A stretch of 64,000 nt of DNA, from the NCBI GenBank assembly GCA_002049455.2, contig KV918790.1, forward strand, positions 62,001-126,000, in the 5' to 3' direction. This DNA comes from Porphyra umbilicalis (Eukaryota; Rhodophyta; Bangiophyceae; Bangiales; Bangiaceae). Every line of letters starts with the position of its first letter. The stretch's first letter is position 1. Below are positions 3,882-46,161 of this stretch, piece by piece. The translations under genes and the position numbers were made by a program. A model generated the notes under the pieces. It was not told the origin of the DNA, did no database searches, and worked only from the letters and a program-made list of their open reading frames with translations.

Positions 3882-3886
3882 CCAGT

Positions 3887-22997: not shown

Positions 22998-23055
22998 AGG
23001 GACCTGTAGTTTGTTGCCTTTGTGTGCGACGTGTTGCGTGTGTATGTTGAGTATG

Positions 23056-27299: not shown

Positions 27300-27337
27300 G
27301 GACCTGCCCCATTTTGCTTCACGAATGGGGCAGGTCC
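27300..27337. repeat. 14-bp perfect hairpin
   Basis: GGACCTGCCCCATT (27300-27313) and its exact complement AATGGGGCAGGTCC (27324-27337) are separated by a 10-base loop. GGGGCCGACG occurs just upstream (27289) and again at 27513. No run of T follows, and in a eukaryote it is not expected to act as a simple terminator. Confidence 0.8.
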
Positions 27338-27827
27338 AACGCCCGCCCCATTTTTGCGCTTCGGAGTTGTCTCGTACTTCCAGGATTCCATCATGACCAT
27401 TGAAGGCCAGAATGGGGTCGATCACGTTGACAGAAAAGCCCAGTGGCCCCATTTCCTTAATAAAGAAACACGTTTCTGCTTCGTGGCACAACGTGTAACG
27501 AATATGAGATGGGGCCGACGTTGTTAGGATTGCCCTCAGAGACCCAAAAGTCATCCTCTCGAAGAAAGTTGTGTTTTACTCATGTTTGGCCCAGAAGTGC
27601 TCGACGCATCTTTAATGTGGGCAAGACTGCACGAGTGAGGAAACACGTGAGGCAAGTGTACCCGGCAGCACCTTTTCTTTTCGCAGCTGGTCAGGACGCA
27701 CACAAAACAACGAGAGTGATGTGCAATGTTGTTTTTTCTTTGAAAAAGCAATGAGAGCCGCTATATGCAGGTAGGGAAGCGCAATCAACGATTCGAAAGG
27801 ATTGTGCAGTGTCATCGCACAGATGTG

Positions 27828-27950
27828 TGATCCACTGGACTAAGCAGTGTCAGCGATCTACTGAATACAGTGGTCAGGATGCGGCATGTGATCCACTGGA
27901 CTAAGGACTGTCAGCGATCCTACTGAATACAGTGGTCAAGATGTGGCGAC
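27828..27950. repeat. Two-copy ~62-bp tandem repeat with internal dyad
   Basis: GTGATCCACTGGACTAAG followed by TGTCAGCGATC, TACTGAATACAGTGGTCA and GATG occurs twice in succession with few differences. CCACTG and CAGTGG within each unit are complementary, so each copy could form a hairpin. Confidence 0.75.
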
Positions 27951-28710
27951 AGAAAGGGTCTGTCGCCAGATGCTATTCTTGAGCACATGCCATCTTCACC
28001 CCCCGCGGCCGCTCGGTTCCCACGCCCCGGTCGCCAGTAAGGCGCCCAGTCAGTACCCCGACTCCACCCCCACCCAGTGTTCCATCTCGCCCCCTTCCCA
28101 CACCGCGCTGCCCCCCCACTCAGTACCATGCTCCACCTGCACCTCAGTATGAATCCTCCCCACTCACCTCGTAAACCACCTCGTTCACCACCTACGGCGA
28201 CACTTCTTTCACCGGCCCAATCCCCATGCCGCTTCTATTGAGCCTCCGCAATCATTGTCACGTACTATTAGATAGTGGCCGCCGTTCTCTTCCCCACTCA
28301 GCACCGACCGGCACGTGGCATGTACGCCTTCGCAACACCCACGACCCAACGCTGAGAATCACCCCCCCCAAGACACCTACCACCCTGCAGCGCCCATCCC
28401 CACGCTACGCCCAGCACCTTCCCACTACATCCGTGACGTCCTGATGCTTCTGGCCCCAATCACCTGGGTACATTAGAAGTCGACGGCCTTGGTCCTATCC
28501 CATCCTACCTAGAACACACTCTCTTGCGGCGCCTGCAGGCAGCAGCCTGCGCAGTGGGTCTTAAAGCGTGGGCGCACACAAACCGCGATTCTGGCAAAAT
28601 TGCCTAACAAGAACTTGTTCGCACCCCGTGCACAGCATCCTGTGGCCCGATTTTTATTACAAGTGGTTTGCATCACGGTTGTGCAGAATTGGGGGCTGTA
28701 ATGTTCATAT

Positions 28711-29048
28711 CACTGACAACCGCTGATAGCGAGTGACACAGGAATCTTGTAACGAGGGTGTTGTGTGGCCGGGCCACCGGTCATCACAGACGGTGCACGC
28801 GCTCTGGGTAAAAAATCTCCCCACAGTAAGCGGGCAGAAACCTTCTCCATGATCGGCCGAGACGCAGCAGAACGGGATACGCTGTCCGCGGTGAGCCCGC
28901 CACGACAGCAAACATAAAACAACTCTGCCAGCGTCACTCCCCCTGTCCGCCCCCCCCCACCACCATCGAGATCAGCAAGCGCACAAGTGACAGAGTGGCG
29001 CAGACACAACGCGGTACGCGCCATTTCCGAGACCAAAACACCGTCACG
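28711..29048. repeat. Duplicated 3' end of the large gene, distal copy
   Basis: A 63-bp block (28711-28773) and a block of about 110 bp (28939-29048) both recur in the same order at 29297-29359 and 29392-29499. The proximal copy is the 3' end of the large gene. This distal copy has an extra 165 bp between the two blocks and still encodes the VSxMARxALCLRH segment of the C-terminus in its own short frame. Confidence 0.75.
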
Positions 29049-29049
29049 C

Positions 29050-29290
29050 CCGGTGGTGGAGATGCCGGTGACAGGGGCGCCGGTGGCGGTGGCGCCCGTC
29101 GTAGTCGGGGGGCGCCAGTGGGGCGTCGGTCAATAAGGGGGGGCGGGGGCGCCGGGGGCGGAGGCGCCGATAGTGGGGTCGCCAGTGGCGGGGGCGCCGG
29201 TGGCGGGGGCGCTGGGGCCGGGGGCGCCGGGGGCGGTGGTGCCGGTGAAGGGGGCGGGCGTCCCGGTAGTCGGGGCGCCAGTGGCGCTTC
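29050..29290. repeat. GGGGGCGCCGGTGGC-type minisatellite
   Basis: Short G-rich units with the core GGCGCCGGTGGCGG repeat through the interval between the two copies of the duplicated gene end. It is probably a product of the duplication or slippage. Confidence 0.7.
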
Positions 29291-29296
29291 ACAAAG

Positions 29297-29499
29297 CACT
29301 AACAACCGCTGATAGCAAGTGACACAGGAATCTTGTAACGAGAGTGTTGTGTGGCCGGGATATACATGCAGCACCTATGTCAGCATCCCCTCCCCTGTCC
29401 CCCCCCCCCACCACCATCAAGATCAGCAAGCGCACAAGTGATACAGTGGCGCAGACACAGCGCGGCACGCGCCATATCTGACACAAGAACACCGTCACG
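29297..29499. repeat. Duplicated 3' end of the large gene, proximal copy
   Basis: Partner of 28711-29048. The block from 29392 includes the last codons and stop of the large gene (stop at 29380-29382 lies just beyond it), so the coding end itself was duplicated. Confidence 0.7.
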
Positions 29500-32400
29500 T
29501 CCTGCCCACAGGAGAAACCCGGGCGTGCGCATCCGTTCGAGGAAAAGGTGAATCATCATCAAGTCCTCATCGAGCTTATCCCTCAACGGCGCGATGGCGG
29601 CGGGTGTTCTGGGTGCGTTGGTGCTGCTCCCCATCACGACGTCGACCACGTCATGCGACGGTAGCATTGGCGCGACGTTCTCGTCGTCGGCCGCCACCTG
29701 CAATAAAAATGCGGCGCGGCCAACGCCAACCGCGCTCTGCCGCTGACGCCGGAAGGTCGGACCGCGGTGGTCGACTTCGCCCTCGTCCTCATCTTCCGAG
29801 TCGATGGCCGCCAGGTCCTTGTCCGACAAGGTAAAGAAGCGATCGCCCGCCACCGGCGCAGACTCGTCGGGGATAACAGCCGAGCCAATGTCCTCCCCAT
29901 TGTCGCCTTCGTGCACCGCCAGCTCGGCCAAGTCGACGGTCACGTCGTCGGCCCCCCCGCCTGTGGCCACTGCCGCCTCAGCGGCGAGGCCCGCATCGTC
30001 GGTGGCGACGACGGGGACGCCGTCTCCCGCGCCCGGGGCTTGCGCCGTATCAGCGGCCGAGTCCTCCTCCTCCACCGCGGCGGTGGCGGCGGCGGCGGCG
30101 GTGGCGGCGGCGGCGGTGCCGTCGGCGGCTGTGTCCTCCACCGCGGCTGCGGCTGCGGCGGTGGCGGTGGCACCGTCGGCGGCCGATTCTGCGGCTGCTG
30201 CTGCAGAAGCGGCGGCGCCGTCAACAGCTTCGCGTGCCACCTCGCTCTCCTTCCGCCCCGTCATACAACCACACCAGCAGATGACCAGGCGGCGCTGCAC
30301 TTGCTGCAGCCGCTTCTGGAGCTCCACCTCCATACTGTCCGCCTCGTCCGACTTGCTGGCTCGGATCGTGTCGACGGACAGATGGAGCTTGAGGCGCAGC
30401 CGGGCGACGCCGACCAGCGCCTCCACCGCCGTTCGCTCGTCCGCGGCCGCCTGGTTGGTCGCAACAGCGTACTGTGCCGCCAACTCCGTCGGTGTCAAAC
30501 GGGGGTCACCCGTCCCGCCACCCAGCTCCGCGCCGTCAGACGACACGCGCCCACCGTTGTTCGGCGCTGCCCCGTCAGCCGTCACGGCCGCTGCTGCCAC
30601 CAATGTGGCGTCCACCGACGACGCGGCGACAGTCGCTGCGCGCGCCCTGTCAAAAAGATCAGCAGCGGGCACTGCAAGGACGTCAGCAGAGGAGGTGTCG
30701 GCGGACGCTGACACAGCGGCCTCCCGGAAGGCGAAGCGCACGACGGCCTTCAAACCGTCACTCGCTGACGACCCCAACCGCGCGACACACGGGCGCAAGA
30801 CGAGCTCGTTGGTGAACAGCAGCTGCTCGGCCGGTTGCCGCCCGTCGGGTTCGTGGAAACCCATGAGAGCCAAGGCCTCCTTGTTGATGAGGGACTGGGT
30901 TCTGCAGACGTTGTTGGTGCGCGAGTTGAAGTACCGGTTCAATGCCGCAATTGTGCCCTCGATGTTGTCGTCGCAGATGCGCTTGAGGGTGGGGAACGAC
31001 TTTCCAATGGTGGAGCGCACGTGCGCCAGCGCCGTGTGCAGGTACAAGTTAAAAACCCCGGCCTTCTTGGTGATGGGGTCAAAGGGCTTCAGCGCTGCGT
31101 AGATGGGCGACAGTACGCCCGCTAGCAGCTGCACGGCGACCGCGGCGCATTCTCTCTCGTCCTCCGTCCTCGTGCTGATGGCCCGCCGCCATGCTGCCGT
31201 CAGGGCTTGGCTCAGCTGCAGCATCACGACGGCGGCACCGTCGACAGTCACATCCTTGCCCAGGATCCCGGGCAGCGCCACCACCATCGCCCCTAGCCGG
31301 CCAAACTCGCGCAGGTACATTCCACCAAGGTTTGATCTCCCCATGACCGAGTAGATGTTGGCCCGCGCCACGTCCCGCATCGGCTCGGACATGCGCGCTA
31401 GCAGGAAAAACATCAATCCCTTGCTGATCTTGCCCGTGCAATGAAGCACGGGAGCCTGGATGCAAAAGGGGATGTCTCCAAGGAGGGTGTAGCCACGCAG
31501 CCCACCAATGCGGCGACGGAGTAGACGGTAGTAGTCGGAGAGTGGGGTGTAGGCGTGCGACGGCAGCAGCGGCGCCTGCGGCTCGTCAAAGAGGTTGCAG
31601 TTCTTGTCCGGACAGGACATGACAGATGGAGACGCTGACAACGCAACCATGTCCCGGTGGCACCCGCCGCACGCCCACCGCAAGAATCCGCCCACTGCCC
31701 TCCACTTGCCGCTGCGCAGGGTGCACCAGCGCGCCAAACTCCACACCATCAACTCCCAGTGTTGCGAGAGCTGCTTAACGTCGCGCTTGTCATCGTGATC
31801 CGAGGCGTCGCCGTCGAGAAGCAACGCGGACAGGTACTCCGCCGGCATACACGGCCACCGGTACGGGCAGCGGTTGACGTCGCCGCACCCCGTGAGCGTA
31901 AGGAGATGACAGACCATTGCAAAGTCGCCGCACACATGCAAGAAGTACGGGAGGGTGACGACAGCGGTTGACCGGAACACGGCTCCCGGCGCGTCGCGCG
32001 GTGCGACCCGCACGACATAGTCTGCGCGCAGAGCGCGTGTGAGCTCCTCGCGGAGCCGCACGCCCACCGCAGAGTGAATGGCTTGCTCGCCGCCCAGGAG
32101 AAGCAGAATGGGGAGGAGAGGCGTGCGGCCGCCGTCGAGGAGCTCCGAAGAGACAGTGAGAGTGAAGACAGTCATCGCACTGCGGCGCACGGGGCCGCCG
32201 TCGCCGGCCAGAGTCACGGCGATGTAGGCATTCTCGATTGCCTCCTCCGTCGCAGGTGGGCAGCCAACGTCAAACGCAAGGCGCAGGGACGCGACCGGGT
32301 CGAACTCGAGGGCGATCACGAGCTCACGACCTCCAGCGGTGCTCGCCGCCGTGCCGGTTCCCGGGTCGGGGATGTCCTCCAAGTAGGACTTCCGGGTGAT

Positions 32401-33888
32401 TTGGAAGGTCTCGCAGAGCTCAGCCTCGAGCGCCGAGGCCTCCTCTACATCAAAGCCTGCACCCCCAGCCGCCGACGCACCCGCCGACGCGCCCGCCGAC
32501 GCGCCCGCCGACGCGCCCGCCGACACGCCCGCCGACGCTCCGACCGACGCGCCCGCCGACGCGCCCGCCGACGCGCCCACCGACGCTCCCGCCGACGCTC
32601 CCGTCGACGCTCCCGCCGACGTTCCCGCCGACGCTCCCTCCGACGCTCCCGCCGACGCTCCCGCCGACACTCCCGCCGACGCTCCTGACGACGCGCCCGC
32701 CACCTCCACCGCCGCCGCCACCTCCACCGCCGCCGCTGACACCCCCGCCGCCGCCGAAGGACCGTCCGCGCTCTCGTCTCCCGTGGTTGGCTGGCGCGGC
32801 CTTTTGTGGTAAGGAGCGGCGAGCCGCTTCTGCGTCCCGTTCTCCATCTCGTACAGCCGCACGCCGTTTGTTGCGGACCCAACCACGTACCGCCACACCC
32901 GCACAGATCCATCAGTTAGCAATGTGATGAGGGAGTGGGGGGGGCGGCCATCGCGGTTTACCGCCTGCCTCACCGTGTCGCGCATTTGTCTTGCAGTTGG
33001 CAACATCTTCGGCACCGACTTGTTGTACGCGGCTTTGCGACGGCGCTTGCGTGGGCGCCTCGCGCCGCTCTCCAGCGCCTTAGCAGCGGCAGCAGCCGAA
33101 ACCCTCTCGTACTCCGAGGCAAAGCGGAGCTGCCCAGCTGTGCCCGCCGACATCACTCTCACAATCTCAATGCGCCGCTCGAGCGACAGAGATGTGAAGG
33201 CGGAAGAGGCCCGCATAACTCTTGCGACCTTGTTGGAGAGGCGCCGGTTGGACAGCCGCCCCTTGTACTTGACCCAAGGGTGGCGGGATGCCGCTGTCGT
33301 GCTTTCTATGGCCACGTAGCCAAACGGCACCTGCCGCGTCGTCGCTTTGTTAAGCTCGATGCGCGCGCGGAAAAGCACCTTGGCGCACTCCGAGCGCGAC
33401 AGAAGCTGGGAGGAAAGCGAAGGAAGAAAGCCCCTCCACGACGGCTCATCTTTCCCATCGTCGTCGGCGAGCGGTGGTGTGGCATATGCCAAGCGCAGGG
33501 AGTCGTGCGCCGACACGGCCGAGTGGTAGATGCCGCGGTCCACGAGGCGGCAGATGGCCCGCGCCAGCACCTCCCGCCCAGAAAGGTCTGAGCGCGCCTT
33601 GACGCGCGCGGTGAAGGTGAACTCGTCGATGTCCACATCGTCGGCCGATATTGGCGACGGGGACGAGGTGCCATCGTCCGCATCGTCTGCGTCCGAATCA
33701 ACAGCGTCTACTATCTGCCGCACAGGCCCGATGATGAGCCACGTCCTCTCATCGTCATTGCCGCTCACAGGAGCACAAACTCGACGATCTCGCTTGTCAC
33801 GCAAGTTGACAATCGCCGCCGCCTCAGCGTCAACTGCCGGTAAAGAGGCAGGGGACGGGTCGTCTGGAGGCAGTGCCTCAGACGACAT
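29380..33888 (-). CDS. Large transposase-like protein (1502 aa), family unclassified
   Basis: The frame is uninterrupted for 4.5 kb. An Arg/Pro-rich extension to 34350 is open, but the start I prefer is ATG 33888 (MSSEALPPDDPSP), since the extension runs into a tandem repeat. Order of parts: acidic/Ser-rich N-terminus; basic helical region around residues 180-330; Ala/Gly/Ser array (about 395-475); a middle domain with VTLAGDGG (Asp563), then HVCGDFAMVCHLLTLTG (Asp655) followed by two cysteines (CPYRWPC); GDIPFCIQAPVLHC; and DDNIEGTIAALNRYF (Glu977). The GDG, then GD with Cys pair, then NxE-xxx-N order resembles uncharacterised transposase-like proteins common in marine eukaryotes and suggests an RNase H-like DDE fold. 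The C-terminus is Ala-rich and acidic. The catalytic role is inferred, not shown. Neighbouring genes may belong to the same element. Confidence 0.6.
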   Translation of the reverse strand: MSSEALPPDDPSPASLPAVDAEAAAIVNLRDKRDRRVCAPVSGNDDERTWLIIGPVRQIVDAVDSDADDADDGTSSPSPISADDVDIDEFTFTARVKARSDLSGREVLARAICRLVDRGIYHSAVSAHDSLRLAYATPPLADDDGKDEPSWRGFLPSLSSQLLSRSECAKVLFRARIELNKATTRQVPFGYVAIESTTAASRHPWVKYKGRLSNRRLSNKVARVMRASSAFTSLSLERRIEIVRVMSAGTAGQLRFASEYERVSAAAAAKALESGARRPRKRRRKAAYNKSVPKMLPTARQMRDTVRQAVNRDGRPPHSLITLLTDGSVRVWRYVVGSATNGVRLYEMENGTQKRLAAPYHKRPRQPTTGDESADGPSAAAGVSAAAVEVAAAVEVAGASSGASAGVSAGASAGASEGASAGTSAGASTGASAGASVGASAGASAGASVGASAGVSAGASAGASAGASAGASAAGGAGFDVEEASALEAELCETFQITRKSYLEDIPDPGTGTAASTAGGRELVIALEFDPVASLRLAFDVGCPPATEEAIENAYIAVTLAGDGGPVRRSAMTVFTLTVSSELLDGGRTPLLPILLLLGGEQAIHSAVGVRLREELTRALRADYVVRVAPRDAPGAVFRSTAVVTLPYFLHVCGDFAMVCHLLTLTGCGDVNRCPYRWPCMPAEYLSALLLDGDASDHDDKRDVKQLSQHWELMVWSLARWCTLRSGKWRAVGGFLRWACGGCHRDMVALSASPSVMSCPDKNCNLFDEPQAPLLPSHAYTPLSDYYRLLRRRIGGLRGYTLLGDIPFCIQAPVLHCTGKISKGLMFFLLARMSEPMRDVARANIYSVMGRSNLGGMYLREFGRLGAMVVALPGILGKDVTVDGAAVVMLQLSQALTAAWRRAISTRTEDERECAAVAVQLLAGVLSPIYAALKPFDPITKKAGVFNLYLHTALAHVRSTIGKSFPTLKRICDDNIEGTIAALNRYFNSRTNNVCRTQSLINKEALALMGFHEPDGRQPAEQLLFTNELVLRPCVARLGSSASDGLKAVVRFAFREAAVSASADTSSADVLAVPAADLFDRARAATVAASSVDATLVAAAAVTADGAAPNNGGRVSSDGAELGGGTGDPRLTPTELAAQYAVATNQAAADERTAVEALVGVARLRLKLHLSVDTIRASKSDEADSMEVELQKRLQQVQRRLVICWCGCMTGRKESEVAREAVDGAAASAAAAAESAADGATATAAAAAAVEDTAADGTAAAATAAAAATAAVEEEDSAADTAQAPGAGDGVPVVATDDAGLAAEAAVATGGGADDVTVDLAELAVHEGDNGEDIGSAVIPDESAPVAGDRFFTLSDKDLAAIDSEDEDEGEVDHRGPTFRRQRQSAVGVGRAAFLLQVAADDENVAPMLPSHDVVDVVMGSSTNAPRTPAAIAPLRDKLDEDLMMIHLFLERMRTPGFLLWAGRDGVLVSDMARAALCLRHCITCALADLDGGGGGGQGRGC
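32465..32705 (-). repeat. In-frame 12-bp array (Gly-Ala-Ser-Ala)
   Basis: About 20 units, on the minus strand GCGTCGGCGGGC, encode GASA repeats within the large transposase-like protein. The core TCGGCGGG is shared with the array at 40114-40572. Because the unit is a multiple of three, changes in copy number keep the frame. Confidence 0.85.
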
Positions 33889-34272
33889 CGTTGACCTCCT
33901 GCTCCCGCGTGGGAGGAGGGCAACCGTTCTCTCAATGGCAGAGGGCGGGAGCGGACGGGCAGCGTTCCGCCAACCGACCGCCACAGACGCCGCACGGGTG
34001 TGGCTCAGCGGGGTGGCGCGTGCTCGGGGTGGTGCCAACCGCCGCAGACGTAGACGCCGACTCCCAGCGGTTCCGGTACGGCCTTGCCCTTCGCTCCCAC
34101 CACGGCGCCCCTGCCGCGGCGGTGGAGGGGGCCGCGGCGGTGGGAGTGGCCGCCTCCGGCGGGGGTGACGGCTCCCTTGCTGGTTGACAGCTCTCCGATC
34201 GTGGATGGGCGTGTCGGGCGCGTCTAGAAGAAGGGGGGGGCGGTGGATAGGGAAGCGGAGCCGCCGGTCGGC

Positions 34273-34404
34273 GGCCACGAAACAAGCGCACCTCTCACCT
34301 CTTTCGCCGGCGCCCTCGCGCACATTGTCAATGCAGACGCCCCGAAACAAGCACCCCTCTCATCTCTATCGCCGGCGCCCTCGCGCCCATTGTGAATGCA
34401 GACA
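34273..34404. repeat. 66-bp tandem duplication at the 5' side of the large gene
   Basis: ACGAAACAAGC, then CTCTCA, CGCCGGCGCCCTCGCG, CATTGTNAATGCAGAC, occurs twice in a row with about 88 percent identity. The open N-terminal extension of the large frame falls inside it, which argues for the downstream ATG. Confidence 0.75.
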
Positions 34405-35749
34405 CCAGGCGGCTGCGAGAGGTGACGGACCCTGCGGCGACCATGGTCACCAGCTGGTCGCCGCTTCTCTTCTCTGTGCTTATGAAACGAGGCCGACAAC
34501 ACACAAGCGGCAACCGCAGAGTTGATGATTGACTCCCACAGTCGTGGTCAGGATAGCCGCTTCCTGACAAGTGGCGGTTGACAGCTGAGACAATACAATC
34601 CTGGCGAAGAGCCGCCCAGCCTAACTCAGAAAGTTCTTGTTTAAGAGCACTTCGTCTCATGAGTATTTGTGCCGTGAGCTCATTCAAGTTTTATTAACGT
34701 CTTCGACAAAGAACCAAAAATATTGCCAATATTCGAACCTCTGGCTGAGTGCGGGAACAAAATGTATGAAAACCACACTGATATGGCGGGTGCTACTGTT
34801 TGCTTTCGAATAGACACTAGTCACTTTGACGTGCAACGTGGACTGCAGCGTTGTTCTTTGCCTGCTGAGCGGCACGTCACCGAGACGTCCTCTCACCGCG
34901 CCATGGACGGCTGTTCCGGTGGCACGGCCGTGGGGGAGGCGAGCGGCTGGGGGCGGTGGCTGTGGCGGTCCGGGCGGCGGCAGTGGCAGTCTTCCTGGTG
35001 GCAGCGGGGGGCAGCGGGGGGCAGCGGGGGGGAGGTGGACGGGCGCGGGGCCGGCGGCGATGGCGGTCCGGGCGACCGCGGTGGTGGTGGCGTTCGAGCC
35101 GCCGCGCGTCTGCACGCCGGTTTCTGCGGCGGCTGGGGGAAGCGTCGGCGAGGGGGCCGTTGTGTGTCTCTCAGGTGGCCGGCGCACACCCGCCCCTGCG
35201 CTATGCCTAGGGCGGGCGGGTAGCCCGGCGCCCTGGTAGCCCGATCCCCGCTCGGTCCGGACCGCGCGGCACTCTTTGGCATGGCCGCGCCCTGAGCGGG
35301 GCGTCGGTAGTTGAAGCACCTCAAAGTGTTGTCGTGTATCCGATCATATTTTTGAGGGAAAAGTTGGGTCTGTTGTGTCTGTGGGCGAGCGCGGGGGGCT
35401 ACGAGGACACATGAGGCGCACCCTTTGATTGACGTCGTCAAACACTTCTTGTTTGTCATCGAGATGCGCACCCTTTGATTGACGTCGTCAAACACTTCTT
35501 GTTTGTCATCGAGATGCGCTGGCTCACTCTTCTCACACGTAGCGCGGTTCGTACACCATCCCACCATGTCATTTTTCCTGGCTTAGTCCATCGACTGGCT
35601 GGTTTCGTGTCTGCTTTTGTACCCAGATTTCGACGCGAATGCTTCAATCCAACAGAACCTTACAACCCCCTGAGACTGTATGGCTCTCTACTGCTACGAA
35701 GCTCCCATGCACAACGCTGAGCTGCTCCCACACCGCCGGATGGTCAACC
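34405..35749. other. Intergenic region between two minus-strand genes
   Basis: No gene is supported. It contains AATAAA on the minus strand at about 34690-34696, a candidate poly(A) signal for the gene at 35750-37789. It also has GGGGGGCAGC repeats at 35015-35036 (quadruplex-prone) and a perfect 50-bp tandem duplication. GTTGACAGCTGAG near 34575 weakly resembles the complement of the 28711 block. Confidence 0.5.
35416..35515. repeat. Perfect 50-bp tandem duplication
   Basis: The sequence beginning GCGCACCCTTTGATTGACGT at 35416 is repeated base for base from 35466. The lack of any difference implies a recent event, or an assembly artefact. Confidence 0.9.
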
Positions 35750-37789
35750 TTAGAGTTGAGTTCCGGGTGCTTGCCCCTCCCCCCCCCCCCCCTCCTCACC
35801 GCCATCCTCTCCCCCTTCGTTCCCCTCCTTGTCCCCCCCGGCGTCGGTCCCACCTTCGCCTTCGTCGCTCTCTCGCTGCGGCGCAGCAACGTTGCCCATT
35901 GCCACAGCTGTGGCCAAGGCCGCCGCCGCCGCCGCAGCAAATGCTGTCGCAGCCGTCGACGCCGCCGCCGCCGCCGTCGCCGCCGCCGCCGCCGCCTCCA
36001 CCATGTCGTTGGGAAGAGGCGTCGCCGCCGACGCCGCGGCATGGAGGGTCAGGGCGGAAAGACTCCTGCCATCGCGATGGCGCTTGCGTGAGGCGGCCGC
36101 GGCGCCAGGCAGGGCGCCGCCGGTGGCGGTGGTGGCGTTCGCAATGGTCTCGTCGGAAACAGCCTCGACGGCGACAGTGTCGACGGCGGCCGCGTCACTG
36201 ACGGTCTCGTCACCGACGGTGTCGGAAGCGGGGACCTCCTCGTCTCCGACGGTGCTGATTGCGGCGGTCGTGTCGTCGACGACTTCGTCGCCCACGGTGT
36301 TGTCAGTGGCCGCGTCGCCGACCACGTCGCCTACCACGTCGTCGACAGCGTCGAGGGCGACATCACCGGCTGCATTTCCGGCGACATGGCCGGTGGCGTC
36401 GCCCACACGCGTTTTCCCGGTGGAAGTCTCGGGCGAGGTGATGGCGGCCACTTCAATGTCGCCGTCGCAGACCTCGTCGGCACTCGCAGGCGGTGTCGAG
36501 GCCGCCAACTCGGACGCCTCCTTCTCGTTGGTTGACTCGGACGCCTCCTCCTCGTCGGCGTCGCCGGTGGCCTCGTCGGCCTCCTCCTCTTCGGCGTCGC
36601 CGGTGACCTCGTCGGCCTCCTCCTCTTCGGCGTCGCCGGCGGCCTCGTCGGCGGCTGCCGACGACTCCCCAGTCTCCTCGCTCTCCGAATAGGACGACGA
36701 CGTCCCAGGTGGAGTTGGGTACGGCGCCGCCACGATGCGTGGAACCACTCGGGGCGCCTGTGCGGCGTGCCCGACGATCTTTCTCGGCTGGCGTCGAGTG
36801 AGTTTTGAGTAACGCCACCCCCGCCGCAGGGGCACGGTTGGAGCACTCCCCGCGGCCGCATCCGCGCTGTCAGCGGCAGCCTGTGCCGGCCCGCCGGCCG
36901 CGTCGGGTGCCGGCCCGCCGGCCGCGGAGAGTTGTTCTTCGCGTCCACCCGTTGTGGCGAGTCGCTCTACGACGCCGCATGCAGGTGCAAGTCGCTCAGC
37001 GTCACCCGGCCCGCCCGCGCCAGCCCGCCCGTCTTGCGCAGCGGCTGGCCCACCAGTCGTCGTGGGCTGATCTACCTGTCCGCCCACCGCGGCAGGTCGG
37101 TCGACCAGATCGCCCAACTGAGCGAGCGGCTCCTGGCTGCCCACCGTAGCAGGACGCTGCTGGTCACCGCCCCCACAGGACGCAGCCTGGGCGCCGGATG
37201 CCCCCGGCATATGCATGGCGGGCGCGTGCAGCGCTGCCGTCTGTCGGCCGGTAGCTGCAGCGACACCTACTTCGGCGGCTGCCCGCTCGGCCACAGCTGC
37301 CTGCCTGTCGTTGGCGGCAGCCTGACGGTCGTCAGCGGCCGCGCGTCGGTCATTGGCTGCAGCCTGCCGGTCGACCGCGGCGGCTTGCCTGTCGTCGGCG
37401 GCCGCCTGACGATCGTTGGCGGTGGCTTGCCTCTCGGCAGTGTGGAACAAGAGGGCGGCTTCGCGGTCGTCGGCAATCTCTTGCTGGGTTTCAGCCACTG
37501 TTTGGCGGTCGTCAGCTGCAGCTTGCCGTTCAAGGGCGGCGATCCGCCAGGCGTCCTGGTGGGCGTCAGCGGCCGCTTGGCGGGCTTGAGCGGCCTCTTG
37601 GCGGTCGTCAGCTGCGGCTTGGCGGTCGTTAGCTGCGGCTTGGCGGTCGACAGCTGCGGCTTGGCGGTCGTCAGCGGTGGACTGGCGGTCGCGGGCGGCG
37701 ATTAGCCCGGCGTCGTCGTTGGAGGAGTCGGTTTCGGAGTTGGTCGCAGCGTCCTGGGACGTGCGCATGCGGTAGCTGCGTCTCGGCAT
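35750..37789 (-). CDS. Coiled-coil heptad-repeat protein with acidic region
   Basis: A 679-residue frame starts at ATG 37789 (MPRRSYRMRTSQ). Residues about 33-175 consist of seven-residue repeats of the RQAAADD type (21-bp DNA units), which should form a long charged helix or coiled coil. A Gly/Ala/Pro-rich section follows, then RRGWRYSKLTRRQPRK, then acidic repeats (GDAEEEEADE, about 45 bp) and a Thr/Val/Asp-rich stretch with many VGDE motifs. An Ala-rich segment and a Glu/Gly tail close the protein. I recognise no catalytic domain. The regular in-frame heptads across 450 bases with conserved R and Q positions favour real coding over chance. It is divergent from the gene at 39097 across a 1.3-kb region. 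Confidence 0.55.
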   Translation of the reverse strand: MPRRSYRMRTSQDAATNSETDSSNDDAGLIAARDRQSTADDRQAAAVDRQAAANDRQAAADDRQEAAQARQAAADAHQDAWRIAALERQAAADDRQTVAETQQEIADDREAALLFHTAERQATANDRQAAADDRQAAAVDRQAAANDRRAAADDRQAAANDRQAAVAERAAAEVGVAAATGRQTAALHAPAMHMPGASGAQAASCGGGDQQRPATVGSQEPLAQLGDLVDRPAAVGGQVDQPTTTGGPAAAQDGRAGAGGPGDAERLAPACGVVERLATTGGREEQLSAAGGPAPDAAGGPAQAAADSADAAAGSAPTVPLRRGWRYSKLTRRQPRKIVGHAAQAPRVVPRIVAAPYPTPPGTSSSYSESEETGESSAAADEAAGDAEEEEADEVTGDAEEEEADEATGDADEEEASESTNEKEASELAASTPPASADEVCDGDIEVAAITSPETSTGKTRVGDATGHVAGNAAGDVALDAVDDVVGDVVGDAATDNTVGDEVVDDTTAAISTVGDEEVPASDTVGDETVSDAAAVDTVAVEAVSDETIANATTATGGALPGAAAASRKRHRDGRSLSALTLHAAASAATPLPNDMVEAAAAAATAAAAASTAATAFAAAAAAALATAVAMGNVAAPQRESDEGEGGTDAGGDKEGNEGGEDGGEEGGGGEGQAPGTQL

Positions 37790-39096
37790 CTTGCGGATGT
37801 CGGGGCGTCGCCCCTTGCCTTGGTATGCTGTATTGAGAGAGGGCAGTGGATCGGCGCCAACGGTCCCCGGCCCGTTTTATTACCGATTGGCACACTGCCG
37901 CTGGCGCGTCTCGCCCGCCCGTGACGGTCGGCACCGCGCCTGCACCCTCCTGCCGCTGGCGCGTCTCGCCGGCCCATGACGGTCGGCACCGCGCCTGTAC
38001 CCGGACCCAGGAGCATGTAGTCGTGCCGGCGCGACCACGGGTGGCGGCTGCTGCCGGGCGGCCGGCGGGTCCCGCGTGGCGTGGCTGGGCTACGGTCACG
38101 TTCATGCGGCGACGGTCGTGGTCGTGGCACCGTATCCTGTAGCCAGCCACGACCGTGGCAGCCGGCCGCGGGGGGTTCGGCGCTGCAGCCAGCCACGACC
38201 GTGGCAGCCGGCCGCCGGGGGGTCTGCGCCCGCACCCGCCGTGGCTGATGCAGGAACCCTCAGCCCGCCGGCGGCCGGGGTGGCCTGCAGCCGCAGCAGA
38301 CGACCAGCTGCAGCTGGCAACCGACGAGCGGGTCGGCGCCTGCGCCCGCCGTGGCACCGTCGGCAACGTAGACACTGAGGTGCCAACTTCTGCCGCTGCC
38401 AGCTGGCGTCAGCAACGACGGCCCTGCCGGGGCGACGTCGTCCCGCGGAGCAGCATTCCCACCCCCCATGCAGCTGCAGCCGCGCCCCCCCCCGCGTCAT
38501 CCATCGGCGAGCTGCTGCAGAAGGGATCCGTAGACGGGCGACCACGGAGGCCGCCGACGCCTCCGCGGAGACGCCGGAGGATGGGGGACCGCGGAGGGAG
38601 CCTCTGCGGGAATGCTGCAGCGCGCGGCGACGGATGACTCCGATCGGGGTGTCCGCGGGAATGCCGGCGATTGAGACGCAGAGAGGGGTCATACGTCTGC
38701 GAGCCACCACTGTCTGGATGGGCGGGGCGCGCAGCACGCCACGTTCTTCCTGCACCCCCATACCAACCCCTACCTCCCTACCAACCCCTCATGCCACACC
38801 CCATGCAGAGGGAGCGTGGTCACCCCCCACCACACTGCCGGGACCGTGAATGTGGGGACCTGTAGCTGCCACGAGCGCCCCTCCTCTGCCTGCAGGCAGC
38901 TGCAGCCCGTTTTTACGTGCGCCGCGGTCGCGGCCGCGGCCGGTCCGGTTCCGCTCCCCGTCTCCATAAAGGGGCTGGCACGGATTGTTTGTTGCCTTTC
39001 TCATCTCCATACGCTCACACGGTCCACCACGCGCTGCCCTAACCATCGCCCCCATCCCCCATCGCCACCCCTCTTCCGTGTCCCCTCGCGACCGCC
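37790..39096. promoter_or_regulatory. Divergent intergenic region, candidate bidirectional promoter
   Basis: The region separates two divergently transcribed frames. It contains two direct copies of a 55-bp unit (37896-37950 and 37951-38005, starting TGCCGCTGGCGCGTCTCGCC) and two copies of CAGCCACGACCGTGGCAGCC (about 38146 and 38188), each holding the dyad CCACGACCGTGG. CCATAAAGGGG near 38964 is a TATA-like sequence about 130 bases before the plus-strand ATG. Open frames across it look like composition artefacts. Confidence 0.4.
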
Positions 39097-40113
39097 ATGA
39101 CGATGACTCCCGCCAAGACAACTGTGGGCTCCTCAAACAAACGATTCAAGAACAAACCCAACCGGCGCTTCAACAAGGTGGCCAAAGTCGTGGCCGGCAT
39201 GACTATCGACGGCTTCCGCCTGCGTAGCGGATACATCATTGTCGACCCCCCGGCATCACCTATTATGGGCGGCCCATATGACATCGACCTCGTCAGCGAC
39301 GACGACATAGGTGCCGACATGACGGCCGGGGGTGGCTCGGCGGCCGTCGGCGTGACGGCCGCGGCGGGCGCCGCGGCGACGGCGAGGAGCACCTCGGCAG
39401 CCGCCGACATGACGGCCGGGGGTGGCTCGGCGGCCGTCGGCGTGACGGCCGCGGCGGGCGCCGCGGTGACGGCGAGGAGCCCCTCGGCAGCCGCCAGAAT
39501 GACGGCCGGGGGAGGCTCGGCGGCCGCCGACATGACGGCCGGGGGTGGCTCGGAGGCCGTCAACGTGAAGGACGCGTCGGCAGCCGCTGTGACCGAGGGG
39601 GGCGCCTCGGCAGCCGCCGGCATGATGGTCCGGGGTGGCTCGGCAGCAGCCGCCGATATGACGGCAGGGGGGGACTCGGCGGCCGTCGGCATGACGGCGG
39701 GGTGGGGTACCGCTGTGACGACGCGCCGCAGTTGCTCGACGGACGCCGTGACACCGCGCGGGGGTGGCTCTACTCCCGGATTCTCTGCGATGGTTCTTCC
39801 ACCGACGGGCACTGCTCCCTCGTTGTCGGCTCCTCTTTATCGCCTGCGCTGGGCGGCCGAGCTTTCGGCTGATGGGGCGGCGGCAGCTAGCAGCCGTGGA
39901 GCTGAAAGGACTATTCCATCCGCTGCTGCGGCTAGGTTCGGTGGCCGCGCGTGCGAGACGACCTTGGACGTTGTTCCCCTCGTCGTGCCTCCCCTGGTTT
40001 CCCTGCGCGCGGCTGGCGACAAGCGACGCGCGAAGGCAATCGCCCGTCGGTCGACAGGTGGGCTTTTGCCGGAGGCGCGTCCAGTGCACCCAGGGCACGG
40101 GCCCGGATGTTAA
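39097..40113 (+). CDS. Ala/Gly-rich repeat protein, function unknown
   Basis: A 338-residue frame begins at ATG 39097, in the good context ACCGCCATGA. The first 60 residues are lysine/arginine-rich (SSNKRFKNKPNRRFNKVAK) and then hydrophobic-mixed (MTIDGFRLRSGYIIVDPP), the only non-repetitive part. From about residue 74 a 30-residue unit (DMTAGGGSAAVGVTAAAG and so on; 90 bp) occurs twice, followed by degenerate shorter versions. The C-terminal third is less biased (PLYRLRWAAELSADGAAA). The stop TAA at 40111-40113 abuts a 12-bp array. No known domain. It may be a structural or disordered accessory protein of the cluster. Confidence 0.45.
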   Translation: MTMTPAKTTVGSSNKRFKNKPNRRFNKVAKVVAGMTIDGFRLRSGYIIVDPPASPIMGGPYDIDLVSDDDIGADMTAGGGSAAVGVTAAAGAAATARSTSAAADMTAGGGSAAVGVTAAAGAAVTARSPSAAARMTAGGGSAAADMTAGGGSEAVNVKDASAAAVTEGGASAAAGMMVRGGSAAAADMTAGGDSAAVGMTAGWGTAVTTRRSCSTDAVTPRGGGSTPGFSAMVLPPTGTAPSLSAPLYRLRWAAELSADGAAAASSRGAERTIPSAAAARFGGRACETTLDVVPLVVPPLVSLRAAGDKRRAKAIARRSTGGLLPEARPVHPGHGPGC

Positions 40114-40572
40114 AGGCTCGGCGGGGGGCTCGGCGGGGGACTCGGCGGGGGGCTCGGCGGGTGGCTCGGCGGGTGGCTCGGCGGGAGGCTCGGCGGGGGA
40201 CTCGGCGGGGGGCTCGGCGGGTGGCTCGGCGGGTGGCTCGGCGGGAGGCTCGGCGGGGGACTCGGCGGGGAGCTCGGCGGGGGGCTCGGCGGGTGCCTCG
40301 GCGGGGGGCTCGGCGGGTGGCTCGGCGGGTGGCTCGGCGGGAGGCTCGGCGGGGGACTCGGCGGGGAGCTCGGCGGGGGGCTCGGCGGGTGCCTCGGCGG
40401 GGGGCTCGGCGGGGGACTCGGCGGGGAGCTCGGCGGGGGGCTCGGCGGGTGCCTCGGCGGGGGGCTCGGCGGGGGACTCGGCGGGGAGCTCGGCGGGGGG
40501 CTCGGCGAGTGCCTCGGCGGGGGGCTCGGCGGGGGGCTCGGCGGGTGGCTCGGCGGGGGGCTCGGCGCGGGG
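40114..40572. repeat. 12-bp GGCTCGGCGGGG array
   Basis: About 38 units of GGCTCGGCGGGG with variants (GACTCGGCGGGG, AGCTCGGCGGGG, GGCTCGGCGGGT, GCCTCGGCGGGG) follow the stop of the Ala/Gly-rich gene. The variants recur in longer composite blocks of about 60-120 bp, so the array grew by multi-unit duplications. It is open on both strands. Confidence 0.9.
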
Positions 40573-41818
40573 TGCAACGGCTCATCGACCGTTTTGGCGA
40601 CGGCGCTTGGGGCCGCCGGGGTTAGCGGGGAGAATTGCGAGGGGAAATGGGGTTGCTTCGAGGAGCGCGTGTGTATCATACATTCTTGTCCTGTTCTTTC
40701 TGTCTTGACTCCTGAGTCAGCAGAAGCGCGTGAGAACCCCGTGACATGAGAATCATGTGAGAAGCGTCTAGTCGAGTCGAGTACCTCCACCCGCTGCTCT
40801 TTTAAAAAGATGGAAGAGAAAGAACCCATCTTGTCAGCATCTGATTCTACCCGAGGCACAAGTCTCCTATGGAGGCGGAAGGGCAGCAAGTCATGGTAAT
40901 CGCGGAAGCATATGCTGACAGTTCGCCCGTAGACCCGTAGACAACGTCCGCCTCTCTTCTCTGTGCTGCCTCGCGTGGCTTCTTTTCTCTGTGCTGCCTC
41001 GCTTGGCGTGGTGCAGGTCGTTCTTCTCTTGTCGCACTTTCTTGCAGAGTTACTGAGTTCCCATTGTATTCTTGCTTTGGTGCCCGTTAAGTTGTCAAGA
41101 TCCAGCCACACTTACGAGATCTTGTGGTTCAGAATGGCGCTGCGCCACGGCAAAAATGTAATCATAGATCAATTTGTGTATTGGTGAATACGTTCGTCGA
41201 TTTCGTGAGGCGTCGCGCCGCTTGTCCCGGTGGTCTAGTAGCTCTACAACCGTCTGATATCATCCACCAACCGCCCACCATCACTTGTCCGTCTAGTTCT
41301 CTTTTGTCTTGCTCTCTTGCGGCGCCGTCTCTGTGTCGTCGGTCGGTCCGCTGCAGTAGCCGTGGCACTCGGTGGTCCGTGGTGGTGCCACCATACAGGT
41401 GGTACATGGTGGCGCACGCTATGTCGGCTACCGCGGTACCATGGCGGTCGCTTACGGTTGTTGGCTGTGGGCTTCTCTGTCGCATGGCTCTGGCGTCGCT
41501 GGCGTCGCTGGTCTCGCCCTCGTGTGGCGTGGCCGTGCCATGGCCTGTGTGGTACGTGGTGGCACGCACGCGGTGCGGTACGCGGTGGCGCACGCTGACT
41601 GACGCGGGCCCCACGCATGGCTCCCTCGCCGCGGCCGCCCGCCGCAGTCTTCTTTAATGCAACCGATGCGATAAACGTGCTGGAAGACCTTTCATTCTCA
41701 CTCCTATTCTGCTAACATCAGCACGCTGCACGGTTTACCACTGTTGTTTCGGTCTGCCTCCCCGCCCCACTCCCTCCCCACTCCCTTCCACCGGTCCCCG
41801 CTATACTGTCGCGTGCAG
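40573..41818. other. Intergenic region upstream of the Pro-rich gene
   Basis: No gene is supported. It has less GC-rich character than its surroundings at 40640-41200. CGCTATACTGTCG near 41800 lies about 20 bases before the ATG at 41819. GGTGGTNCCAC/ACATGGTGGC-type short repeats occur around 41380-41590. Confidence 0.45.
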
Positions 41819-44002
41819 ATGGCTACAAGTGCTGAGGCGGCGGCGCCTTCGGTTCCGCCGTCGGGAGTTGCCGACGCCAACCCGCCACCGCCGGCGCAGC
41901 CGATGAGCGGCGCCGCAAGCGGCAACCCGTCCCAGTCGGTGCCGCTGACAGGCGCCGCCGCCAACACCAACCCGCCCCCACCGGTGCTGCCGACGGGCGG
42001 CGCCGCCAACGCTAACCCGCCACCGTCGCTGCCGCTGACGGGCGGTGCCGCCAACGCCAACCCGCCGCCGTCGCAGCCGCCGACGGGCTGCGCCGCCAAC
42101 GCCAACACGCCGCCGACGCAGCCTCCGACGGGCGGCGCCGTCAACGCCAACCCGCCGCCGTCGCAGCCGCCGACGGGCGGCGCCGTCAACGCCAACTCGT
42201 TGCCGTCGCAGCCGTCGACGGGCTGCGCCGCCAACGCCAACCCGCCGCCGTCGCAGCCTTTAACGGGCGGCGCCGCCAACGACAACCCGCCGCCATCGCA
42301 GCCGCCGACGGGCTGCGCCGTCAACGCAAGCGCCAACCCGCCGCCGTTGCTGCCGCCGACGGGCGGCGCCGTCAACGCCGACGCTCCTACGAGGCTAACG
42401 GAGGAAATGGTATTCCTGTCCCTCGTCTTGCGCATCATTCTCGTTGTGTCTCCCGGCGTTGTCACTACTTCAATCTGCACGCCGCTTTTGGCCATTATCT
42501 ACTACGCGTCGAAGATGTCATTTTTGGCGGGCGACTTTCGCGGGGGGTCGCAGGCATGTGTGGGCCGCTGCTTGCGTTCAATGTTCTCCAAGCCGCCTTC
42601 TGCCAATTCCAGTGACGCCTCGTCATTGAGGGAGGGTTGGATTCAGTTGTGCCGGCTGTTCAACCTTTGCAGTCGTGGCCTTTATTTGTGCGGCCGCCGT
42701 AAGCGCTGCCACTTCGTCGGTCAGCCTGACTCGGTGCCGGCGGCGATGGAGAAGCGCTTCAACGAGAAGGCGCCCGAGCAGCCGCAGTACCTGACGCGAC
42801 GCGCGTACTTGCGGACCAAGTTGGACCTGTGGGTGGTCGAGTCCAGCCCGGGCTCCCTGACGGCTGTCGAGCTCGCCACCCTGCGCCGCCTCCTACTCTC
42901 TGACGAGGGAAAGAAGTTGGCGACGGCGGCGAAGTGTCGGGTCATAGGAGGTCTAGACCCGAACGGGGCGGCAACGGACGCGGCCTGGCTTCTTTTCAAC
43001 TGGGGCTTGCCGTGGCTGCCTACCGGTGAGTCCGAAATGCTGGTCACATCCTTAAAGTCGCGGCTGCACAAGGCGCCCAACAACTTCATGACGAAGGTGT
43101 CGGACTGGCCGCGGGATCCGGTGGCTGCTCCCGTTGCTGATACCGCCGCCGTCTCTGCGGCTGCGTCCAAGAAGAGGCGGGTGACCGGCGCGGCTGCCAT
43201 GGGGGGGTCTGCCCGTCGGTCAAAGCACATCAAGCATGCGGCAGAAGCGTTTGCACCTGCGGCTTTGCCGGCGGCACTGGCTTCTGTCGACGGGCATTTT
43301 GTGTCCGACGTGCATGTGTCGGCGGCGTGGCCGCTAGGCGGCTGGGGGGTCATGCTGCCCCTGACCTCCTTCTTGGACGCGTCGGTCGAAGGCAAGGTCG
43401 ACCTAAACGTCCAGTTGCGCGAGCGAGCGAGGACGGACGGCGACCTGGGCCCGTTTTGCTATACCTTGCGGGTCATGCAGGTAAGTGTGAGCAAGGTCCC
43501 CGTGGACGACCCGGTTGCCGCGCGCGTTTTGGCTGGCGGTGGCATTTCCTCTCGAGCCTGCAACGTCGACTTCATGAAGGCGGTTGATGAGATGTCAGCA
43601 GCCGTGTTGCGGGACCCGATGCGGAGAAAGAGTGCGCGCACGGTGCTCGCCAACGCTGCCCCGGCCGCCTCGAGCCCCGGCGCTGCCGACCATGGGGACC
43701 TCGTCGACGAGGATGCCACGGACAAAGACGATGGCGGGGAATACGTGGGTGTGGACGAGCCGGGCTCCGAGCCTGTGGGTGGCGGCTTGGACAACGCGAA
43801 GAGCGCGTCGCGTGAGTCGCTGAATGCGCTCCCTTCGATGACAATGACCTGGGCGCCGCCTGTGCCCGCGACGCCCTTCTCGTGGTCGTGGACATTCTCC
43901 TCGTCCCTGCAGTTGAGCTTGTCCGTTGCTGACAAGTGGAGGCGCCCAGGGCGCTTGCACATCGTTGTGCCTGTCGCTGTCCCTGTGATGGATCTCATAT
44001 AG
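41819..44002 (+). CDS. Pro/Ala/Asn repeat protein with hydrophobic segment, unknown
   Basis: From ATG 41819 (MATSAEAAAPSVPPS) the frame is 727 residues. Residues about 20-190 are a 15-residue repeat of the type GGAVNANPPPSQPPT, encoded by about 11 units of 45 bp. A strongly hydrophobic stretch follows (about 197-230, MVFLSLVLRIILVV and onward), which could span a membrane or be a buried helix. The rest is non-repetitive and well balanced: a Cys/Arg-rich segment (LYLCGRRKRCHF), a helical section (LTRRAYLRTKLDLWVVE), a KKRR nuclear-signal-like motif near residue 450, and an acidic tail. The non-repetitive 500 residues without a stop support coding. A strong 5' splice-like CAG/GTAAGTGTGAG lies at 43478-43488, so the true C-terminus may differ. 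I recognise no family. Confidence 0.5.
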   Translation: MATSAEAAAPSVPPSGVADANPPPPAQPMSGAASGNPSQSVPLTGAAANTNPPPPVLPTGGAANANPPPSLPLTGGAANANPPPSQPPTGCAANANTPPTQPPTGGAVNANPPPSQPPTGGAVNANSLPSQPSTGCAANANPPPSQPLTGGAANDNPPPSQPPTGCAVNASANPPPLLPPTGGAVNADAPTRLTEEMVFLSLVLRIILVVSPGVVTTSICTPLLAIIYYASKMSFLAGDFRGGSQACVGRCLRSMFSKPPSANSSDASSLREGWIQLCRLFNLCSRGLYLCGRRKRCHFVGQPDSVPAAMEKRFNEKAPEQPQYLTRRAYLRTKLDLWVVESSPGSLTAVELATLRRLLLSDEGKKLATAAKCRVIGGLDPNGAATDAAWLLFNWGLPWLPTGESEMLVTSLKSRLHKAPNNFMTKVSDWPRDPVAAPVADTAAVSAAASKKRRVTGAAAMGGSARRSKHIKHAAEAFAPAALPAALASVDGHFVSDVHVSAAWPLGGWGVMLPLTSFLDASVEGKVDLNVQLRERARTDGDLGPFCYTLRVMQVSVSKVPVDDPVAARVLAGGGISSRACNVDFMKAVDEMSAAVLRDPMRRKSARTVLANAAPAASSPGAADHGDLVDEDATDKDDGGEYVGVDEPGSEPVGGGLDNAKSASRESLNALPSMTMTWAPPVPATPFSWSWTFSSSLQLSLSVADKWRRPGRLHIVVPVAVPVMDLI

Positions 44003-44517
44003 TAAACGCTTGGTGTTCTGCTTTCATTCTACCTACCCGTGACCCCGTGACCTCTCCTACCCATGAAAAAGGCCCATACACGCCCTTATTTGTCGCTATC
44101 CCGCCGCAACGGGACGGCGGGGGGGGGGTGGGAGCTGTAGTCATAGTACGCCCAACAATAGGGGCAGGCGGCGCTGTGCACCATGCGGCAGAGGAGGCGA
44201 GGCGGCGGGCGGTCGACACGCCGCCGTCGGTTGGCGGCCGACGGTGGCGCTGTAGCTGGCGGGAAGGAAGTCGACGTCCCACAGGATGGCTGGTGCATCC
44301 ACGTAGGCCGGCGCGCCGGCGCCGCCTGCCTCCGAGCCGGCCGCCGCCATCTATCCGCCAACGCGCCGACGCTCGCCCGCGCCGTGTCACGGTATTGCGG
44401 GGCCTGTCGGGCGTGCGCCGGTCGGCTCGCACGCTCCGGTCGCGCCGGTCGGCCCGCACGCTCTGGTCGCGCCGGTCGGCCCGCATGGCGACGGCGGAGG
44501 CGGCGGCGGCGGTGGCG

Positions 44518-44581
44518 GCGGCAGGAACGGCGGCGGCAGGAACGGCGGCGGCAGGAACGGTGGCGGCAGGAACGGCGGCCG
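44518..44581. repeat. 15-bp tandem repeat, about 4 units
   Basis: GGCAGGAACGGCGGC repeats four times with one substitution (GGTGGC). Confidence 0.85.
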
Positions 44582-46161
44582 CCAAGGCGGCTTGCGCCGG
44601 CGGCCTGCATGTCGACTGCGGCGACATTCCCGAAGCTGCTCCGTCACCGTCCAGTCGAGGGCGGGGGGCGGGGGCGGCGCCATCGTCGCCCGCTCGCGGC
44701 GGAGGTAGGGCGAAGGGGGTGGGGGAGTTGTGATCCCCCCCCCCACCACAATCACAGAACGTACAACCACATAACGTGCACAGTTACTAGTTACCTGGCC
44801 ATAGATTTCCATCGCCGCCAGTCGCGCGACTTTGTGGACGGCGACGCGACACCCCCCCCCCCCCAGCCGACTCAAAGACAGTGTCGGCGGCAGCTGGAGG
44901 GACAGCCGGCCGGCCCGGCACGTTGGGCGCCCACCGGTGCGCCAGCCCGGCACGTTGGGCGCCGGCGCCCGCCCGTGATGCGTCAGTCCGGCCCTGGGAG
45001 GCGGGGCCGGCCACGGCCGACCATCGGCAGTCGCTGCAAGTGAGGGAGCAGGTGGTGCACCGCAGGGTGTGTTCCCCCCCGAATGCTTCTTCTTCCTCTC
45101 CAAAGAGCAGCGACGAGCAGCGATGAGCGGAGTGAAGAGCGGGTCTGCAACGCGCAGCGCACACAGGTGTGATCCAATCTTCTTATTTCTATCATATAGC
45201 CCCCTTCTCATCCGTATTATCGGATACGAAACTGGGAAACTTGCAGACCGTTGCGGGAGGCTACCACCTGCCACCTCTTGATCACATGTTGAAAACACAA
45301 CCAAACACGACCATGGCAACATAATGCTCCAACGATACGAAGCCACGTTTAGCTGAATCCATTATTTTATCTCAAAGCGTGGCATGGCTGAATGACGAAG
45401 GAACTGTTTCGATGTCCTTTGTTCGTAATTGCTTCGCAGAGAGCAGAGAACTCTTTTATTTGAGACCGTTTAAGCTGCAGGAAGGCGCCTGGAGTGTTTG
45501 TAAGCGTGGAATCGGCTGCTAGCGTGGTGTGTTAGATGCTGATGCATGAGCATCAGTCACGAGCATCAGTCACACCTCCGGGATTTGTGCATGAGCTTCG
45601 CATCCGTGAAGCGTCGGAGGACGTGGAAAGGAGACAGCTTCGAAGCCTCCAAGCATGCATCAGTGGTCGTCGATTTCATCTGTCCTCGCTTCTCATTGGG
45701 GAGGTCCAACGCAGATGCACTACGCTTATTGGCTGTGGATAACTGTCAGCTCGCCTGGCCATCGGAGATATTCTCAGCTCACATGCCATGACCCGACCCA
45801 GCATTCATGACTTCGCAAGAACCTGTCGCTGAACAAGGTCGTGTGACAACTTCTTGTGCGACGGGAGGTCTTCTGACAAGAAAATCGTGCGAAAAACGGC
45901 ATGTGTGCGCCCACGCTTTAAGGCCCACTGCGCTGCCTCACCGCTGCCCCGCGCCGTGTTCGTGCCGCGTCAGAAAATGCTGGGGCCCGCTGTCTTACTC
46001 GATCTTGTGACCCTCACATCTGTCCAACAGCCACCGTCACGTTACGTCAAGCGATGTCCAGAAATATTACCAGGGCACGCGTCATTGTAGTAAAGTCAAC
46101 CATGCCCGATTCCACAATCGGTATAATTTTTATCGTTGCAATGTGCCCTGCCGGCACACCC

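Follow-up and report, generated by a model that had tools for sequence, protein, structure and literature searches.

Introduction

CACTA elements carry two genes, and Transib elements duplicate 5 bp of their target. In RAG1, the spacings from the second D to the Cys and from the His to the Glu are about 20 residues each, and the RSS heptamer resembles CACAGTG. The KDZ transposases are large DDE enzymes.

According to a 2025 paper (PMC12730594), the CMCT clade comprises EnSpm/CACTA, Mirage, Chapaev, Transib, Plavaka, ESTA and Lanisha, together with RAG1; its transposases have the acidic residues D, D and E; the interval from the second D to the E holds C(2)C and H(3-4)H, and the conserved residues of these kinds number five (2C + 3H) in all. 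The paper gives the elements 5'-CA..TG-3' ends in most cases and duplications of 2-5 bp; EnSpm has CAC..GTG ends and a 3-bp duplication, Plavaka has 2-3 bp duplications and TGT..ACA or CATCA..TGATG ends, ESTA duplicates 2 bp, TA, and Zisupton, of the KDZ group, is listed with 8-bp duplications (PMC12730594). Harbinger elements can likewise have 3-bp duplications and a two-protein layout (PMC2213677; PMC12730594 on Nuwa).

Here we describe a locus in a 64,000-nucleotide stretch of the Porphyra umbilicalis genome (the window), for which the original prediction was a transposase-like protein, ORF1, of an unclassified DDE-like family.

Results

A 17-kb insertion in a dispersed repeat

The genome searched comprises 83.8 Mb in 665 contigs, numbered C, where the window is C30:62001-126000; regions fetched from it for comparison are numbered L, 20 of them lying around matches to the ORF1 core. 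The phycobilisome-linker profile PF00427 matches this genome 12 times, on 8 contigs, and four of the matches are on C665, which is possibly the plastid; in 14 control genomes the profile hit only a cyanobacterium. A red alga is thus the likeliest source, and a glaucophyte, since phycobilisomes are present in that group too, a less likely one. In the window ORF1 lies within a mobile element, recognized by inverted termini, a 3-bp duplication and the interruption of a dispersed repeat:

28550..45932, no strand: whole mobile element, 17,383 bp
28547..28549, no strand: left target-site duplication CTG, read at the element junction
45933..45935, no strand: right target-site duplication CTG, read at the element junction
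28550..28580, plus strand: left terminal inverted repeat, 31 nt, one mismatch against the right
45902..45932, minus strand: right terminal inverted repeat, 31 nt
27533..28549, no strand: left part of the interrupted dispersed repeat, joined to 45933-46378 in copies L010-L013
45933..46378, no strand: right part of the dispersed repeat; in the copies elsewhere the match starts at 45933 or 45942, and that of the left part runs to 28550

At empty sites on other contigs (L011-L013) both halves of the dispersed repeat are adjacent and uninterrupted, and the L010 copy holds about 400 extra bases inside the right part. Since the halves adjoin in copies elsewhere, the sequence between them (28550-45932) is an insertion accompanied by a CTG duplication. 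For a 22-nt part of the left terminal inverted repeat, shuffling the window gives an expectation of 0.00 occurrences. A target duplication of 4 or 5 bp was our first guess, dropped when the element junctions were read as 3-bp CNG.

The window, with a high GC content (56-73% in 2-kb steps) in keeping with Bangiales such as Porphyra, holds further repetitive DNA. Positions 27000-27537 are one copy of a roughly 540-bp sequence; about two dozen more, from elsewhere in the genome, are among the matches listed, many of them 96-98% identical. A retroelement at 2304-5533 (minus strand) has reverse transcriptase (E 1e-33) and zinc knuckle frames, and a DDE_1 transposase fragment, which we take to be pogo-like, lies at 12781-13896 (plus strand, E 8e-10). 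A Harbinger-type pair consists of a NAM-associated-like protein just below the cut-off (21547-23133, plus strand) and a Plant_tran transposase (24508-26349, minus strand, E 1e-57). From 56760 to 64000 a tandem satellite of about 20 copies of 345/359-bp units, most of them 97-100% alike, runs to the end of the window, and long mechanical ORFs pass through it.

ORF1 and its conserved residues

The features of ORF1 at the level of the frame are as follows:

29380..33888, minus strand: ORF1, putative DDE transposase of 1502 aa; 830 bp separate its 3' end from the left terminus
32761..33825, minus strand: residues 22-376, a conserved N-terminal region with a basic stretch, matched at least partly in divergent copies
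32469..32701, minus strand: in-frame 12-bp tandem array of 19.4 copies, between the N-terminal region and the catalytic core
29416..29925, minus strand: residues 1322-1491, a C-terminal region conserved in the closer copies

The intact 4.5-kb frame of the original prediction, which gave no strand, was confirmed on the minus strand as 1502 codons and a stop without a break, and the in-frame repeats noticed there are the 12-bp array. The open frame extends upstream to 34350, or 1656 codons if counted from a TTG. In the comparison of 20 genome regions the conserved blocks are residues ~22-376 and 495-1047, with 1322-1491 added in closer copies; the first of them is probably the DNA-binding part.

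The residues of the core discussed below are encoded at these positions:

32200..32202, minus strand: codon of D563, putative first catalytic Asp, 18/18 rows
31924..31926, minus strand: codon of D655, putative second catalytic Asp, 17/17 rows
31849..31869, minus strand: C674-x5-C680, Cys pair 19 residues after D655, 17/17 rows each
31597..31671, minus strand: extra Cys cluster, C740-x2-C743 and C759-x4-C764, in 17, 16, 17 and 17 of 17 rows
31021..31038, minus strand: H951-x4-H956, 19/20 rows each
30958..30960, minus strand: codon of E977, putative catalytic Glu, 19/19 rows

These counts come from two overlapping alignments of 18 rows (core1) and 20 rows (core2), several of them partial, which represent the 20 fetched regions and the window out of all matched places of the genome, and their rows are not independent, since some are near-identical copies (L036/L037/L038). 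Of the 88 column entries of D, E, C or H that have 12 rows or more, 14 show no variation (D530, D563, E601, D655, C674, C680, C740, C759, C764, H816, C817, D937, D974 and E977); nearly invariant are C743 (16/17), H951 and H956 (both 19/20) and a further six columns. The motifs GDG (D563), CGDF (D655) and NIEGTIAALN (E977) lie exactly where they had been placed in the original prediction, and the Cys pair noticed after D655 is C674/C680. Conservation does not single out the triad, because other acidic residues (D530, E601, D937 and D974) are invariant too. Along the protein the order is D563, D655, H816, H951-x4-H956 and E977, and by eye the stretches before D563 and D655 appear strand-like, as would be RNase H strands 1 and 4. 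AlphaFold models from single-sequence input (pLDDT 37.8 for residues 495-1047 and 37.4 for residues 515-690) carry no evidential weight.

A transposon family with CNG target sites

Searching the genome with the ORF1 core (residues 480-1110) gave 64 matching stretches, several per copy. Those other than the window's own are 28-67% identical; many belong to long open frames, and some contain internal stops. Ten elements, the window's included, were delimited as those flanking ORF1 for which both ends could be located, among the terminal-motif matches listed or by pairwise alignments, and the presence of ORF1 in them is no test, because they were picked for flanking it. They measure 11.5-22.5 kb and have opposed termini, and all 10 are flanked by identical 3-bp CNG sequences (CTG in five, CGG in three, CAG and CCG in one each). 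A genome search for multi-copy homologues with sharp ends had been proposed as a check of the original prediction, and its outcome supports that prediction. The ends are CAC..GTG in 6/10 elements and CGC..GCG in 4/10, the window's among the latter. In 9/9 elements measured, the ORF1 open frame points to one terminus and ends 0.64-1.49 kb from it; in the tenth, on C89, match positions agree with this orientation toward the near terminus. The near-end terminal motif was also seen at L019, L023 and L025, where the other end was not located, and at none of the remaining copies.

The terminal motif in its general form, GCRCAGTGGNSCTTAAACC, has 244 genome hits at <=2 mismatches, versus 13 for the reversed pattern; the ends of the family can also be written C[GA]CAGTGGNSCTTAAACC. 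Among the terminal-motif matches listed, many are paired in opposed orientation at distances of about 0.7 or 1.1 kb, which makes them miniature elements, and a related terminal set (65 matches versus 5) forms others, with pairs about 0.35-0.49 kb apart. An exact CNG duplication flanks 7 of 12 miniature elements, the other five having degenerate ends or differing flanks. In one miniature element compared beyond the terminal inverted repeat, each end matches the same-side end of the window element above all 200 shuffles.

Several partial or rearranged copies were observed as well. Frames at L023:4542-5720 and L025:4968-5735 start at about residue 780, so that the first two catalytic Asp are missing from them. 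The same part of ORF1 (query 301-512) is spanned by six more frames, of 243-285 aa, on C8, C48, C113, C100, C21 and C84. This piece may travel in another repeat, since L023 and L025 are about 95% alike even beyond the terminal motif. At C190:19669-37904 two perfect terminal motifs face outward, either because they belong to adjacent elements or because the copy is rearranged.

Comparison with known transposon groups

ORF1 and 14 family members matched no transposase family and no solved structure in Pfam, PDB and PHROG, and no relatives were detected among viral contigs, phages, plasmids and prokaryote genomes; the Rfam search (gathering threshold) and the tRNA search were also negative. PF02992 (Transposase_21) was matched by 0/14 members at E<=5, HMMER filters dropping most matches above ~0.1, and the 136 PF02992 matches listed for the genome all lie away from the ORF1-family matches. 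As for these CACTA frames themselves, a good number are ~930-1050 aa long, and the identical scores of several suggest recent CACTA families. A literature search returned no paper recognisable as describing the ORF1 family; Repbase was outside that search, and prior deposition there is possible.

Although no library profile matches, the residue order, the ends and the duplication length point to CMCT. The label "unclassified" was therefore too strong, while the prediction of a DDE-type lineage stood, the family being multi-copy with sharp ends and D563, D655 and E977 invariant. On the same three grounds ORF1 is probably the DDE transposase of a giant CACTA-like (CMCT-like) element, in a divergent lineage of the clade. 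By conservation, D563, D655 and E977 (18/18, 17/17 and 19/19) would be its D, D and E, and H951-x4-H956, with each histidine present in 19/20 rows, agrees with the H(3-4)H of the clade. A literal C(2)C is present as C740-x2-C743 (17/17 and 16/17), but within the extra four-Cys cluster, whereas the pair at RAG1-like spacing, C674-x5-C680, is C(5)C. The 3-bp duplication of 10/10 elements lies within the 2-5 bp of the clade; the termini are CA..TG in 6/10 elements and CG..CG in 4/10, including the window's.

The family resembles EnSpm/CACTA in its 3-bp duplication, its large size and its two genes, in the D-D-[C,C]-H-H-E order and, for several subfamilies, in having CAC..GTG ends; the string DF..L[TS]G......CP close to the second D is likewise reminiscent of CACTA. 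The family differs from this group in lacking a PF02992 match, in C(5)C and the extra four-Cys cluster, and in the CNG form of its duplications. With Transib/RAG1 it shares the CMCT residue order, ORF1 spacings (19 and 21) close to those of RAG1, and in several subfamilies a CACAGTG end that resembles the RSS heptamer; however, its duplication is 3 bp, not 5 bp, and the PDB set gave no sequence match. Plavaka, ESTA and Lanisha are likewise divergent CMCT lineages, the first two with short duplications, but Plavaka is described with other ends, and ESTA duplicates TA (PMC12730594). The KDZ transposases (PF18758), with 28 matches in the same genome, are similarly large; their genome places do not coincide with those of ORF1, and the 3-bp duplication contrasts with the 8 bp given for Zisupton (PMC12730594). 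A KDZ identity was considered and dropped, there being no PF18758 match and an hhalign probability of 0.4% against three KDZ proteins of this genome.

It is also conceivable, if unlikely, that ORF1 is a DDE transposase of an independent superfamily outside CMCT, in which the D-D-H-H-E order and the CA..TG-like ends arose by convergence. Such an origin would agree with the lack of similarity of the 14 members to Pfam transposases and to the three KDZ proteins, with three Cys pairs instead of one, and with the CGC..GCG ends of the window subfamily in place of CAC..GTG; yet the acidic/Cys/His order, the 3-bp duplication and the CAC..GTG ends of other subfamilies fit EnSpm/CMCT.

ORF2 and the element interior

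A second conserved gene lies toward the other end of the element:

41819..44002, plus strand: ORF2, from its first ATG at 41819; the frame is open from 41675

ORF2 has no Pfam match. Its core (42392-43174) has 10 non-self matches in the genome, three of them weak (C55, C477 and C20, E 2e-4 to 8e-4). Seven of the ten (C41, C272, C293, C295, C238, C55 and C477) share a contig with an ORF1 match and lie 4 to 9.5 kb from it on the opposite strand, head-to-head as in the window; the one on C41 falls inside a delimited element. An eighth, on C20, is 27 kb from the ORF1 match of its contig, and those on C357 and C18 have no listed ORF1 match alongside. Elsewhere in the interior, the low-complexity frame 35750-37876 (minus strand) matched no family, and the other frames found no match among the fetched loci, a weak comparison in that these loci reach only part of the elements' far side.

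The recurrence of ORF2 beside ORF1, the much of the interior that is unexplained, and the choice of the delimited elements for flanking ORF1 are what one would expect if ORF1 were a passenger or accessory protein and the transposase were ORF2 or another gene of the 17-kb element. We consider this very unlikely, since the place and orientation of ORF1 are fixed at the element end and it is ORF1 that carries the DDE pattern, whereas ORF2 matches no family and has just 10 non-self matches, compared with the 64 stretches of ORF1. Two genes and a 3-bp duplication occur in Harbinger as well (PMC2213677; PMC12730594). Nevertheless, a PIF/Harbinger-type element is highly improbable: DDE_Tnp_4 and Plant_tran matched neither ORF1 (E<=1) nor the 14 members, while the true Harbinger transposase of the window (24508-26349) matches Plant_tran at 1e-57.

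Selection and recent movement

Nine dN/dS values were computed by the Nei-Gojobori method on the catalytic core and all are given here: 0.17 (window-L020), 0.20 (window-L022), 0.13 (L027-L028), 0.11 (L027-L026), 0.11 (L032-L034), 0.17 (L030-L032) and 0.15 (L033-L036), and, for near-identical pairs, 0.89 (L026-L028) and 0.93 (L036-L037), all of them rough because the wide pairs have a high dS (0.69-2.28) and the near-identical pairs, with few changes, a very small one. The subfamilies are thus under purifying selection (0.11-0.20 in the seven cross-lineage pairs). Near-identical copies (L033/L035, 98.7% over 7,180 bp; L036/L037/L038, 98.4-98.7%) sit at different sites, so movement has been recent. 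An apparent GT-AG intron just before the second catalytic Asp in L030 and L032 is absent from the window copy.

Long open frames are common in GC-rich DNA, and the length of ORF1 alone is therefore little proof; what takes it beyond chance is the set of 64 matching stretches, the dN/dS of 0.11-0.20 between subfamilies and the invariant D/D/E columns. Constraint between lineages with drift after insertion is what a transposase lineage, not a host gene, would be expected to show. The long intact frame and the purifying selection on the family would also suit a single-copy or domesticated host gene, but the many copies (which exclude the single-copy host family against which the original prediction was to be checked), the termini, duplications and empty site that mark the window copy as an insertion, and the near-identical copies with dN/dS near 0.9 leave that explanation a negligible probability.

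Discussion

ORF1 is very probably the cut-and-paste enzyme of a large, many-copy transposon family, and this family appears to be a deep, possibly undescribed branch of the group that holds the plant CACTA elements. Tentatively, and with rather more doubt than conviction, we would go further and see in it an undescribed red-algal lineage of superfamily rank on the CACTA-Transib-RAG1 branch: giant (11.5-22.5 kb), recently mobile cut-and-paste transposons that insert at CNG, conserve a second gene and have an additional zinc cluster within their catalytic core.

As a CMCT-like transposase, ORF1 might act as follows. Its N-terminal region, perhaps with the help of ORF2, would bind subterminal palindromes as well as the 5'-C[GA]CAGT ends themselves. 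Catalysis would fall to D563, D655 and E977, set in an RNase H-like fold whose insertion is presumably held by Cys/His zinc sites; this centre would cut the ends and join them, staggered by 3 nt, to a CNG trinucleotide, and repair of the stagger would leave the CNG duplication.

Few transposons have been curated in the genomes of red algae. Starting from one unannotated protein, the analysis arrived at a transposon family with exact ends, a CNG target rule (10/10 elements with both ends located) and near-identical copies at different sites. This family would provide a fresh outgroup for the CACTA-Transib-RAG1 branch. CNG is the symmetric trinucleotide context of DNA methylation in plants, and the CNG duplications thus raise a question of target-site choice that can be tested.
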